From the NCBI GenBank assembly GCA_009846005.1, contig VXYL01000070.1:196947-260946 (forward strand): 64,000 nucleotides of DNA, written 5' to 3'. Below the pieces are notes generated by a model that saw nothing but the letters and a program-made list of their open reading frames with translations, searched no databases and had not been told where the DNA came from. Made by a program: the position numbers and the translations under genes. The DNA is from Gammaproteobacteria bacterium. GTDB taxonomy: Bacteria > Pseudomonadota > Gammaproteobacteria > Pseudomonadales > Azotimanducaceae. Below, piece by piece: positions 11,428 through 16,785 of the stretch (within the stretch, counting starts at the first letter, position 1; every line of letters begins with the position of its first letter).

Positions 11428-12243
11428 TCAAACCTCTTTGGATCGGCGCAGTTGTTCCTCCAACTCGGCGATACGCCGTTCCGCGAGCGCGGCCCTATTC
11501 TCCGCCGCTTCACGGGCTTCTGCTTCCGCCATCGCGTCTCCTTCCGCTTGACGGTACATGGCCACCGCCTCGTTGTAATAGGGGAGATCAAGGCCTGTCG
11601 CCGGGTCGTGCAATCGCAGCAAGGTGCCGTCGACGCGGATGCCGAGACCGAGGATCGCGCTGTGCCCAGTCAGGCCGTCTCCCTCGACGCGATAGCTGCC
11701 GTTGTCAAGGCGTCGTACAAGAAGCGGCGGGTCATCGCTGAGACGGTGCTGATCGAAGGACCAGTACTCGGCGATGCCAAGTGCTTCGTAAAGGTCCGGC
11801 TTGTCGCGCAGATCTTTCCGCCAAGTCCTGTCCGATAGCACCTCCACGACGAGATCCGGCGGTTTGCCTTCCTCCCAGATCTTGTACGAATTCCGGCTGC
11901 CGCCCTCAACCCCCAACGCGACGAGGACATCCGGCGCGACAAGGGCGGATCGATTGCCCTGTTCGAAATAGAGCCCTAAGTCGGCGTCCACGAACACGTC
12001 GTCCCGGTCGCCGTACCGGTCCCCCACCACGTACTTGATATAGCCCGCTACGACGTTGTGGTCCGAGTTGTCCACGGTCGCAGAGTCCTCGTACGGATAG
12101 CCGTCGTCGTCACAACCAACCGGCGGCACCGGTTGGTACAGCGCCGCGGCGTGGACTACCGACAAGGGTTCTGCAGGCGAGCGACGGGCAGCTCTGCCTT
12201 GTCGCACACCTGTCGACGGGGTGTTCTGGTGGGTTGGTCGCAT
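11428..12243 (-). CDS. Uma2-family (DUF820) PD-(D/E)XK protein with C-terminal coiled coil
   Basis: Uma2-type restriction-like fold: VAPDVLVALGV and PPDLVVEVLSDRT give the Asp and Glu of the active site, followed by DKPDLYEALGIAEYWSFD. ATG 12243 is preferred over upstream in-frame ATGs because the earlier stretch shows no conserved features. The N-terminal ~25 residues are basic. The C-terminus (about 45 residues, EAREAAENRAALAERRIAEL) is a predicted coiled coil, common in this family. Uma2 genes are numerous in cyanobacteria and many other bacteria; their biological role is not established. It is not obviously coupled to its neighbours. Confidence 0.82.
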   Translation of the reverse strand: MRPTHQNTPSTGVRQGRAARRSPAEPLSVVHAAALYQPVPPVGCDDDGYPYEDSATVDNSDHNVVAGYIKYVVGDRYGDRDDVFVDADLGLYFEQGNRSALVAPDVLVALGVEGGSRNSYKIWEEGKPPDLVVEVLSDRTWRKDLRDKPDLYEALGIAEYWSFDQHRLSDDPPLLVRRLDNGSYRVEGDGLTGHSAILGLGIRVDGTLLRLHDPATGLDLPYYNEAVAMYRQAEGDAMAEAEAREAAENRAALAERRIAELEEQLRRSKEV

Positions 12244-12448
12244 GGAACCTACTTCCGGGTGTTGTTCGCCGGCATCGCCGACCTGCGACCGTGGAACGGT
12301 CGCATCGCGCATGGCCGAAACGTACCACAATTCGATCTCTCGGAGCCGTGCCAATGGACTGACCATGGTCGTCATCGGGGTTCCCCAGCGGTAGCGAAAG
12401 AGACCGGTGATGATGTGCGAATCGGCGGAAGGTGCCGGGCGATATTAC

Positions 12449-14094
12449 CTACAAGGGCTCGATTCGACGTGTCACCGCATGTGTCGAGCCGCCGAACGTG
12501 GGCAGAACGGCCGAGTGGCGTCCCGCGCCGCCGGCGACCAGCACGATCAGTTGGTCCGGGTCGGTCACGAACCGCACCCCGTCGGCGGCACGTTCCCCGC
12601 GCAGCTGCGCGGGATTGCGATCCGCCACGGCATCGACCATGGCGTCGGAGACAACCCCGCGCGGCACGATCGCGCGTTCGCTCAGGAACCGTTTCACGTC
12701 AGTCTTGGAGAAGCCGTCGGCCGCGATGACTTCGGCATGCTCTGGTCCAATGACCACCACGGGCTGCCCCGCTAGGTAGAAATTGTTCGCCCCCGGCGAC
12801 GCCAGGGTTCCGGCGATGGTCAGCAGGATTTCCTCGCCGGTACGGCCGTAGTGGTCGTTGACGTTGTGGGGACCCTCCACGCCGAACACCGTGACGTGGC
12901 TGTCGGCCGGGTCGAGTCCCATCTCCTCGTGATAGGAAGGCCAGGGGCTTGCCTCCAAGTTCTCCGCGAAGCACAGGGCGTACTTGGCGGGCGATCCCAT
13001 GGTCGACCGGTCCAGCGCTCCGGGCGAGGCACCGCCAATGTTGGTGAGCACGAGGCGAATGGCGCGGCCGATCGCCGCGTTGGCGTGGCTGCCTTGGCCG
13101 AAGGCGTTGTACGACCCGTTGACCTCGAGTTCGTCCGCTACGGGTCCGCCCACGAGGCACGCCACGGTGCACGGATGCGTCGTCGACTGCAGGGCCTTGA
13201 GGTTGAAGCTCTCGTCGATCATGGCCCGGACAGCGGCGAGAACGACGGCGAAGTGCGCCGGCTCGCACCCTGCCATAACCGCGTTCGCTGCGATCTTGCC
13301 CAATGTCGCTCGGCCCAGCCGGGGTTCGACGAGCCCGGCCAGCTCGTCGGGATTCCGCCCGGCAAGCATTGCCTCCACACGCCCTGGGGTTGGCGCAGCA
13401 CGGGCAATCCGTCCGTCCAGCCACGTCTGTAGAACACCCGGTTCATGGCTTCGATGGAATCCGGCCCCCTGAAGGTCAGCGGTGCATCCGGCGCGTTGAA
13501 CTCGCTCTCGAAGAGCGACCTGTAGCGACGCCGGCCACGTGCCTGGACGGTCTTGTCGCGGTACTTCGCTGCCAGCGAAGCGGAATCGGCGGTCAGCGCT
13601 TCTGCAATCTCTCCGAGCACGCCTGCGGCGAATTCACGGCATTCCTCGGTGTTTCGTTTCGCCAAGGGATGCGGAACCACAGCGAGCGGCAATCCCGGCA
13701 TGTCCCAGCCCATCGCCTCGGTTTTCGCCAAGGCGAAGAACTCGTCGGTGCACACGGCCACGGTCGGGATGCCGCGTTTCTCGAGTTCGATGCAGTCATG
13801 GATACACCACGACGTGCAGGATCCTCAGTCGCAGACGGCCCCCACCACCGCGTGGCATTCGGCGATGAACTCGTCCGTGAACGCCGCCGGCTGGGTCGCT
13901 TCCTTGCGGAACCAGCGGAACCGTTCGACGCCATAGGACTCCCGAAGCCCCCGCCCAACGTGTTCGAGAAGCACATCGGCGTTCTTCTTGTCGTTGGCGA
14001 AGAGACCGACAGTCGCACCCGGACCGAACTCGATGCGGGGTGCGAGCGGGGTCGATTTGACGTCGAAGGCGCCGCAGGGGTTCATCAATTCCAT
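12449..14094 (-). CDS. UGSC-family (seleno)protein: in-frame TGA at the UGSC motif, plus a -1 frameshift
   Basis: Three pieces of one conserved gene. Segment 1 (14094-13828) ends ...VGAVCD; the next codon is TGA (13827-13825) followed directly in the same frame by GSCTSWCIHDC, so the TGA is the U of the UGSC motif that names this family, and selenocysteine is the straightforward reading. Frame 1 continues to GWTDGLPVL near 13396. There one base appears missing: the conserved continuation (PTPGRVEAMLAG...KIAANAVMAGC) is in another frame down to 12449. Adding one G after the CTG at 13398-13396 restores DGLPVLAPTPGRVEAML. ATG 14094 has AGAGGA upstream. Function of the family is unknown; a redox role is plausible. 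The shift could be a real mutation or an assembly error. Confidence 0.78.
13391..13398 (-). other. Frameshift site in the UGSC-family gene
   Basis: The upstream frame gives GWTDGLPVL then loses homology; the alternative frame picks up PTPGRVEAMLAG with no gap. A single missing G next to the CTG codon (minus strand) explains the change. Beyond the site the upstream frame stops being conserved at once. Confidence 0.7.
13825..13827 (-). other. Candidate selenocysteine codon (TGA)
   Basis: In-frame TGA between VGAVCD and GSCTSWC. A short stem closed by GGAT/ATCC can be drawn in the 25 bases just after it, with GU in the apical loop, but the loop is nearer the TGA than in classic bacterial SECIS elements, so this hairpin is only suggestive. 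No selA/selB/selC is in the window. Confidence 0.7.
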
Positions 14095-14180
14095 CACGAG
14101 TCCTCTCGTCCAGATTGACCAACGCGCTCTTATACCACCGAGCGATTTGGGCCGCAGACAGGCGATCGGGTCGATGCATC

Positions 14181-15306: not shown

Positions 15307-16785
15307 TCAGTTGAACCGACGAAGGAGATCACGGGCAAAGGTGTCGCGGTATTGCCCCCTCGCCAAGCGGCGTTTGAACGCATCGAGCTTGGCGGCATCG
15401 AAGCCAAGCGCCGGAAACGCTTCCTCCAGGAAACGATCACGGACGGTACGGTGGCCGGATTCGAACACGAGGTTCGCGAGTTCGCACGGATCTTCGAGCA
15501 TGTCATAGAGTTCGACCGGGCGGCGGGACGCGGAGTCCACCGTCATCTTGTAGCGGTCGTCGCGCGCCATGGAATAGTAGGACTCGACTTCGCTCCACAC
15601 GTAGCGCTTGCCCGAATCGTCGTCGACGACCTCCATGCCCGTGACGAACGAACGACCCGGGCTCTCGCCGACCGCTCCGGCACCCGCCGCCTCGGTCAGG
15701 GAAGCACAAATGTCCACGTGGTCGGTTAGCTGCTTCGTGCGTCTCGCGGAGGTGCCGCCGGGCGGGCGGACGATCAGCGGGATCCGCGCCGCGCCTTCGT
15801 AGAACACCTTCTTCTGCTTCAGCCGGTGGTCGCCCAGCATCTCGCCGTGGTCCGAGGTGTAGATCACCCAGGTGTCGTCCAAGATCCCCTTGTCGGCCAA
15901 AGCGTCAAGGACCATGCCGACGCCGTGGTCGATCAAGGTCACTTTCGCGTAGTAGTGGCTGACCATCATGCGGGCGTGTGTCTCGGTCATGCCGTCGAGA
16001 CGGGCCGACTTGAGCATCTGCGCCACCTGCGGCGAGACCGGACTATCCGGGGCGGCGAGAATCGGTAGCGGCACCTCTTCCGGCTTGTACAAGGATCGGA
16101 AGTCGGGGGGCGCGTCAAACGGCGTATGGGGACCTGTGAAGCACACCTGCAGGTAGAACGGCCGACCTCCTGGGTCGTCGCGAATCCACGACGCCGCCTG
16201 GGACGCGCAGTAGACGTCGATGTGCTCGTCGGTGGGCAGCGGCGACGGCGGGTCCTCCCAGGGCTGCGCACCCCGAAAGGCGCCCGTCCACCATAGCCGC
16301 GTGTAGTCCTGGTAGACGCCGAGACGCCCGCGTTCGGCGAGGAAGTCCGCGTAGTAGCAGGAACAGCGTTTCGACGGCACCACGTCGCGCAGTTCGTGGA
16401 TGTCCTGGTAGCCCCAGTGCTGGAGCTTGTGGGCATGTTCCCGGGTATGGCCGTCGTTGCGGTGATTGGGGTAGAGGTGGGTCTTGCCGATGATCGCCGT
16501 GCGGTAGCCGGCATCGCGGATGCTCCGCACATGGCTCGGGCCGTGACGGTCGGCTTCGACAAGGTTGTTGCCCCAGACGCCGTGGGCGTTGACCGGCAAC
16601 CCGGTAATCAGGGAAGCCCGGGCCGGCATGCACAGCGGCGAACTCGTGTAGCAGCGCTCGAACAGGACCCCGCTATCTGCCAAGCGGTCGAGGTTCGGAG
16701 TCTGGACGACAGGGTTCCCGTCGCACCCCAGCGCGTCGCCCCGGTGCTGGTCGGGAAAGAACAGGACGATGTTTGGTCGGGACAC
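15307..16785 (-). CDS. Type I sulfatase (arylsulfatase A family)
   Basis: A 492-residue sulfatase. The N-terminus PNIVLFFPDQHRGD carries the metal-binding aspartate of the alkaline-phosphatase fold; LCMPARASL (Cys52) is the C-x-P-x-R motif whose Cys becomes formylglycine. Metal ligands recur in YTSDHGEMLGDHRLKQK. No signal peptide is evident, so it may be cytoplasmic. GTG 16785 has GGGGAG eight bases upstream. It is divergent from the cyclase gene with 65 bases between. The formylglycine-generating enzyme at 27.7 kb could mature it. Substrate (sulfated polysaccharide, sulfate ester or other) cannot be read from sequence. Confidence 0.9.
   Translation of the reverse strand: MSRPNIVLFFPDQHRGDALGCDGNPVVQTPNLDRLADSGVLFERCYTSSPLCMPARASLITGLPVNAHGVWGNNLVEADRHGPSHVRSIRDAGYRTAIIGKTHLYPNHRNDGHTREHAHKLQHWGYQDIHELRDVVPSKRCSCYYADFLAERGRLGVYQDYTRLWWTGAFRGAQPWEDPPSPLPTDEHIDVYCASQAASWIRDDPGGRPFYLQVCFTGPHTPFDAPPDFRSLYKPEEVPLPILAAPDSPVSPQVAQMLKSARLDGMTETHARMMVSHYYAKVTLIDHGVGMVLDALADKGILDDTWVIYTSDHGEMLGDHRLKQKKVFYEGAARIPLIVRPPGGTSARRTKQLTDHVDICASLTEAAGAGAVGESPGRSFVTGMEVVDDDSGKRYVWSEVESYYSMARDDRYKMTVDSASRRPVELYDMLEDPCELANLVFESGHRTVRDRFLEEAFPALGFDAAKLDAFKRRLARGQYRDTFARDLLRRFN

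Follow-up and report, generated by a model that had tools for sequence, protein, structure and literature searches.

The stretch of DNA analysed here, referred to as the window, comprises 64,000 nucleotides of contig VXYL01000070.1 from a Gammaproteobacteria bacterium of the Azotimanducaceae (assembly GCA_009846005.1). On its minus strand lies a gene for a selenoprotein of the UGSC family that is fused to a second domain, designated the partner domain, and whose reading frame contains a TGA codon at the selenocysteine (Sec) position. Translation from 14094 to 12449 reads VVGAVCD, the TGA (13827-13825) and then GSCTSWCIHDCIELEKRGIPTVAV. The TGA is flanked by VGAVCD and GSCTSWC, so that VCD-TGA-GSCTSW contains, as U, the Sec or Cys followed by GSC that is expected in this family. 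With the TGA read as U, the Pfam family PF24696 (UGSC) matched residues 3-168 at 2.4e-46, with a score of 158.5 against a cut-off of 25, and the NCBIfam model NF041046, named "UGSC family (seleno)protein", scored 136 bits, its cut-off being 125. The original prediction, made from the letters alone, had placed the TGA at the U of the UGSC motif with conserved sequence in frame on both sides; both statements were borne out, since the protein lies above the two family cut-offs and both matches span the TGA.

The gene had also been expected to be split into three by automatic callers. Three open reading frames were indeed found with translation table 11 (13825-14097, 13219-13761 and 12449-13378), but the TGA accounts for the first break alone, and the second is a frame change. 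Interrupted in this way by a Sec codon and by a change of frame, a gene of about 545 residues is lost to a mechanical call of open reading frames. The predicted UGSC gene was confirmed, but the description was incomplete, as the C-terminal partner domain had not been noticed. The statement that the gene adds another member to the family is right, though it comes as no surprise: the family has had its name since 2008, the UGSC protein and a UGSC/"Unknown_1" fusion have been in print since then, and a curated NCBIfam model exists. The features of the gene are collected in Table 1.

Table 1. Features of the UGSC-partner gene in the window.
Feature	Coordinates	Strand	Basis or remark
Whole two-domain selenoprotein gene (UGSC and partner domain)	12449..14094	minus	ATG 14092-14094, stop 12449-12451
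UGSC domain, residues 3-168	13591..14088	minus	PF24696 2.4e-46; NF041046 136 bits
Sec-encoding TGA, U of UGSC	13825..13827	minus	translation; in-frame TGA in relatives
Bacterial SECIS hairpin	13791..13818	minus	18 nt past the TGA; core stem 13795-13813; apical loop of 5 nt (UGUAU) containing the G-U
Frame-change stretch, single-base gap near 13394	13379..13424	minus	comparison with intact relatives
Partner domain, MNRVFYRRGWTDGLPV block to C-terminus	12449..13460	minus	start at about 13460 placed by eye

In a set of 38 related genomes, the own genome included, UGSC was identified in 25, and 59 UGSC rows were listed. The 53 best-matching rows (E <= 5.4e-36) all had exactly one in-frame TGA, which argues that the TGA in the window gene is not a chance event. 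Of the other six rows, one was without stops and the others were short, split or degenerate. The motif with U was found in all 30 of the loci L011-L040. A second set, fetched with the partner domain from named genomes, was made up of the 80 best loci out of more than 500. Here UGSC was present in 73 loci, with 81 hits corresponding to 79 genes after two genes, each split in two, had been merged by hand. The inspection of the Sec column in homologues, proposed as a check on the prediction, was positive, with TGA in 74 of the 79 genes and Cys in four (L096, L104, L120 and L127). The remaining gene, from Blastococcus (L110:4549-4551), carries TAG at the Sec position, with the same hairpin after it and the partner next door, which fits the UAG decoding of Sec published for UGSC-motif selenoproteins of Geodermatophilaceae (PMC5330540). 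Two further, divergent homologues deviate: that at L065:3476-3952 has Ser at the Sec column, and that at L069:3579-3887 has a broken frame and a TGA followed by Cys instead of Gly; for neither was a partner found in the fetched stretch. Fused genes of a divergent subfamily, in which the motif reads UGxCTP, lie on a long branch of the partner tree (L090:8481-9911, L122:1219-2691 and L124:184-1344).

The bacterial model of the Sec insertion sequence (SECIS), as given in PMC13188914, has a loop of 3-9 nt, a stem of 4-16 bp, a distance of 16-37 nt from the UGA, a minimum free energy of at most -7.5 and a G within the first two positions of the loop, with G or U as the usual next base. The hairpin that was looked for after 13825 on the minus strand agrees with this published model, with a core stem of 7 bp, a distance of 18 nt from the TGA and a loop of 5 nt whose second base is G. 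Its fold energy was -14.9 kcal/mol for a segment of 39 nt (z = -2.25, 5 of 200 shuffles as stable) and -18.6 kcal/mol for one of 48 nt (z = -2.72, 2 of 200 shuffles). Among 96 distinct segments, G-T was found at positions 23-24, counted from the T of the TGA as 1, in 90. They correspond to the loop G and U that are essential in E. coli fdhF. Where Ser is encoded at this site the codon was AGT in 77 of 77 cases, and where Cys is encoded it was TGT in 13 of 13; elsewhere in the same domains AGT accounts for 256 of 3229 Ser codons and TGT for 245 of 1173 Cys codons. This synonymous constraint on the apical G-T is hard to explain by the protein sequence. Covariation was counted in 95 segments, with L143 left out. 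In 71 of them pair 21-27 of the stem reads G-C and in 23 it reads C-G, and double changes over the four stem pairs numbered 27, compared to a mean of 6.3 and a maximum of 14 in shuffles; the force of all these SECIS counts is lessened by their origin from related, protein-coding sequences, which are not independent trials. In all four Cys homologues examined U24 is absent, and three of the four have lost one of the four consensus pairs.

The genome of the window is a 4.96-Mb draft assembly of 106 contigs. It contains selA (528 bits, above cut-off), selB directly after selA (377 bits), selD (246 bits) and a tRNA-Sec (69.5 bits, with the gathering score set at 47). Among 14 well-known control genomes, the models gave matches above cut-off in one for selA, two for selB, two for selD and five for tRNA-Sec, with more below cut-off. 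Because the tRNA model exceeded its cut-off in five of the 14 controls, the call of ARAGORN, a tRNA-SeC with the anticodon tca (UCA), serves as a second line of evidence. The prediction that the organism makes selenoproteins is thus supported, all four components being present above cut-off. The selD gene (L048, C72:17291-18193, minus strand) lies in an open frame of 755 residues with a CGGC motif and, by eye, an NADH-dehydrogenase-like domain in front. It resembles the Ndh-SelD type, reported in PMC2398784 as common in marine samples. Taken together, the TGA of the window gene is almost certainly read as Sec in vivo.

In nine related loci (L051-L056, L058, L059 and L063) the frame runs on past UGSC for about 370 residues, the TGA being its sole stop. 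The partner domain thus added to UGSC, of about 350 residues in the window gene, has the near-invariant motifs DGLP, NAVMAGC and IGRA. For 61 partner domains compared to Pfam and NCBIfam at E <= 0.1, no convincing named family was identified (best 0.0031); the matches were chance-like, with one or two members per family. A search of solved structures with the partner profile gave no match at E <= 10. In the own genome exactly three partners and three UGSC domains were identified, paired one-to-one; the other two UGSC paralogues are stand-alone genes with the same partner next door (41% and 38% identity to fused copies). A partner was found in 29 of the 30 UGSC loci L011-L040, in L011 on the opposite strand. 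Conversely, seven of the 80 partner-fetched loci are without UGSC, three of them (L071, L076 and L128) with the partner at most about 250 bases from a contig end. Of 116 partner rows, 31 are fused to UGSC and 75 are adjacent (UGSC within 1.5 kb on the same strand), 106 in all, and 10 are neither; the window row was entered as fused by hand, since the frame change hides the fusion from automatic scoring. On a quick tree of these rows the fused label changes 11 times, with at least seven changes forced by starred branches. This repeated joining and splitting is strong evidence for a joint function. UGSC and partner are therefore very likely to be one functional unit, presumably acting as a complex. 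The pair is also present on two haloarchaeal plasmids, where the annotation reads "UGSC family (seleno)protein" beside "hypothetical protein".

Some arrangements depart from the simple pair. One Chloroflexi metagenome-assembled genome carries three fused UGSC-partner genes in tandem (L132:512-5873). A second partner-like copy follows the pair in L107, L111, L114, L115, L118 and L133, with two more in L107; in the partner tree, most of these extra copies belong to a branch that is divergent. Three contigs of metagenome-assembled genomes titled Bordetella parapertussis (L113, L142 and L145) group in this tree with environmental betaproteobacterial metagenome-assembled genomes and are probably mislabelled.

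For the fused protein of L072, an AlphaFold2 model (95 rows) was obtained with a predicted local distance difference test score (pLDDT) of 95.6 and a predicted template modelling score of 0.94. In the UGSC half of the model, strands and helices alternate in five units. The Sec, which is residue 89 and was modelled as Cys, follows a central strand (81-87) and stands just ahead of helix 90-105. The predicted fold would thus be Rossmann-like alpha/beta and not thioredoxin-like. A model of the partner alone had a pLDDT of 95.7. With Foldseek, neither the fused nor the partner-only model matched an entry of the PDB at E <= 1e-3; the best matches of the partner, to fumarases and cyclic amide hydrolases (template modelling score, TM, of about 0.2-0.28), were dropped as too weak. 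A sequence search of solved structures with the UGSC domain of the window had a best E of 0.33.

A remote kinship was seen for 34 UGSC members compared to protein families at E <= 0.1. TIGR01917 (GrdB) was matched by 18 of them (best 1.9e-6), GrdF by eight, TIGR01918 by seven, GrdH by seven and PrdB by three (best 4e-5). In the window protein, residues 72-150, with the Sec at 91, align with positions 327-400 of the 431 of TIGR01917. The Sec of GrdB itself presumably lies within the matched columns 327-400, and the Sec residues of GrdB and PrdB are both taken to be in the matched region. True GrdB was found in none of 200 genomes at E <= 1e-30, a search in which no control genome matched either, and the Pfam family GRDB was matched in one of 299 genomes at E <= 1e-8. 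At the sequence level, the relation of UGSC to GrdB and PrdB is one of remote similarity and not of membership.

A link to a reductant was identified in one paralogue lineage, on contig 16 of the own genome and in relatives, where the partner has an N-terminal thioredoxin-like domain. By tblastn this domain was found in 16 locus rows (14 distinct genes); CPTC is present in 11 rows, and the other five alignments begin past that site. A Variovorax plasmid carries the partner with a UGSC gene of the Cys type and, about 2 kb upstream of the two, a thioredoxin reductase gene (trxB). Other neighbours code for organic-acid binding proteins, coenzyme A transferases, RraA-like proteins and MmgE/PrpD proteins, and suggest a catabolism of carboxylated compounds, with no compound named. 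A neighbour cluster represented by a TctC-type binding protein is present in 20 of the 80 loci. Betaproteobacteria contain many TctC-type binding proteins, and little weight was therefore given to this cluster. In the window, the gene is neighboured by genes for a Uma2-type protein (11428-12375, minus strand), a sulfatase (15307-16785, minus strand) and a putative cyclase of PF04199 (16773-17786, plus strand).

The explanation which accounts best for these observations, and which is considered probable as a whole, combines Sec insertion by SelA, SelB, SelD, tRNA-Sec and the SECIS element with a UGSC-partner protein acting as a thiol-driven, two-component selenoenzyme reductase. The complete system would decode the TGA under the direction of the hairpin 18 nt downstream, and the product would be a UGSC domain joined to a partner that elsewhere is usually encoded by a neighbouring gene. 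The partner may hold and polarise a small organic-acid substrate, which, by analogy with GrdB and PrdB, would be attacked by the Sec selenolate. A Se-S intermediate could arise with the conserved Cys that follows the Sec, and reduction of the Se-S or Se-substrate adduct by thioredoxin-type dithiols would regenerate the Sec and complete the reductive cleavage. The partner domain of the window gene would be cut off, either by a recent frame change of one base or by an error of assembly. For the catalytic part by itself, a thiol-driven reductase of the GrdB/PrdB type, the analogy makes a case that falls a little short of even. Somewhat more tentative is the fuller proposal of a two-component selenoenzyme whose Sec domain shares an ancestor with that of glycine and proline reductase, with thioredoxin as donor and probably a carboxylate-bearing substrate, distributed in proteobacteria, Chloroflexota, Rokubacteria and actinomycetes, with a Cys form in haloarchaea. 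With the near-constant partner, the remote tie to glycine and proline reductase and the link to thioredoxin, "function unknown" can be replaced by a testable two-protein assay.

Since the window copy also bears a frame change, the TGA might be regarded as an ordinary stop and the locus as a decayed pseudogene broken twice. This is very improbable in view of the TGA conserved in the related rows and genes described above, the full Sec machinery and the SECIS element. Furthermore, codon differences from four congeneric copies (L051, L052, L054 and L056; 89-95% identity) are mostly synonymous, with synonymous to non-synonymous counts of 57/27, 87/25, 81/44 and 105/43. In each of these comparisons a single-base gap lies near 13394. 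It is the sole indel in three of the four alignments, and L054 alone shows further, frame-neutral indels. As intact copies of the fused gene exist in these four relatives and both sides of the break are conserved, the frame change appears to be either a recent mutation or an assembly error. Programmed frameshifting was discarded, because none of the four compared relatives has a frame change. As assembled, the strain would make UGSC with a linker and lose the partner domain. That this is the true state of the gene is indicated by the assembled sequence itself, but is rather doubtful: the gap is the only frame-breaking indel in all four alignments, the sequence is conserved on either side, and the window sits in an assembly of many contigs.

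A different role was also considered, in which UGSC is a thioredoxin-like redox protein and the partner its redox substrate or client enzyme rather than a co-catalyst. The UGSC motif has the spacing invoked for the thioredoxin-like suggestion of Zhang and Gladyshev (2008). However, the order of the strand-helix units in the AlphaFold2 model, with the Sec before helix 90-105, is not that of thioredoxin; no thioredoxin was named among the 50 PDB matches listed for the fused model, several of which were Rossmann- or flavodoxin-like, all weak; and the remote similarity to GrdB and PrdB spans the Sec-bearing stretch. This role is thus regarded as unlikely. Several observations weigh against the preferred reading, a Sec-containing reductase related to GrdB and PrdB. 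In the search with the 34 members, unrelated families were also matched, by one or two members each (best 0.0032), and Pfam GRDB was matched by none at the same threshold. The window protein scores far below the cut-offs of TIGR01917 (21 against 602.2 bits) and TIGR01918 (13.7 against 65.45 bits). With no confident structural match for the partner (best TM 0.27-0.28), a role like that of GrdE or PrdA is unsupported. UGSC is present without a partner in the fetched stretch of L017, and the partner without UGSC in those of L077, L125, L130 and L141, where it does not lie within about 250 bases of a contig end. The G-T is missing in six of the 96 segments, and the four Cys homologues retain most of the SECIS stem. 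For three of the thioredoxin-like domains the match to AhpC-TSA (9e-5 to 1.4e-3) does not reach the Pfam gathering cut-off, and the neighbouring genes are mixed and indicate no substrate.

Compared to known systems, the window gene is closest to the UGSC family itself (NF041046/PF24696), with which it shares scores above both cut-offs and the UGSC motif, with Sec in most members and Cys in some; it differs by the fusion to a second domain and by the frame change of this copy. In the ocean survey of 2008 (PMC2398784) UGSC is described as one of the more abundant selenoprotein families, with 255 Sec sequences and 21 Cys homologues, and a review of 2026 (PMC13188914) lists it with NF041046 among selenoproteins of largely uncharacterised function. 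In the available portions of the UGSC literature (PMC2398784, PMC13188914, PMC9312934, PMC5330540, PMC1794560 and PMC7539508), neither an adjacent partner gene nor a tie to GrdB is described. GrdB, GrdF and GrdH of glycine, sarcosine and betaine reductase and PrdB of D-proline reductase resemble UGSC by the remote similarity over the Sec stretch and by the UxxC spacing, the motif of GrdB being given as UxxCxxC (PMC13188914). They differ in that UGSC lies far below the family cut-offs and has a length well under the 431 positions of the GrdB model, and the partner domain is not recognisable as GrdE or PrdA. The UAG-decoded selenoproteins of Geodermatophilaceae belong to the same family, as does the Blastococcus gene with its TAG at the U and its adjoining partner, whereas the genome of the window uses UGA. 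The UGSC/Unknown_1 fusion of Zhang and Gladyshev (PMC2398784), reported together with the UGSC-containing family and the suggestion of a thioredoxin-like fold, likewise joins UGSC to a conserved domain of unknown function, which may be the partner. If the partner is Unknown_1, it is distributed far more widely than in the "limited number of aquatic organisms" given in that paper.
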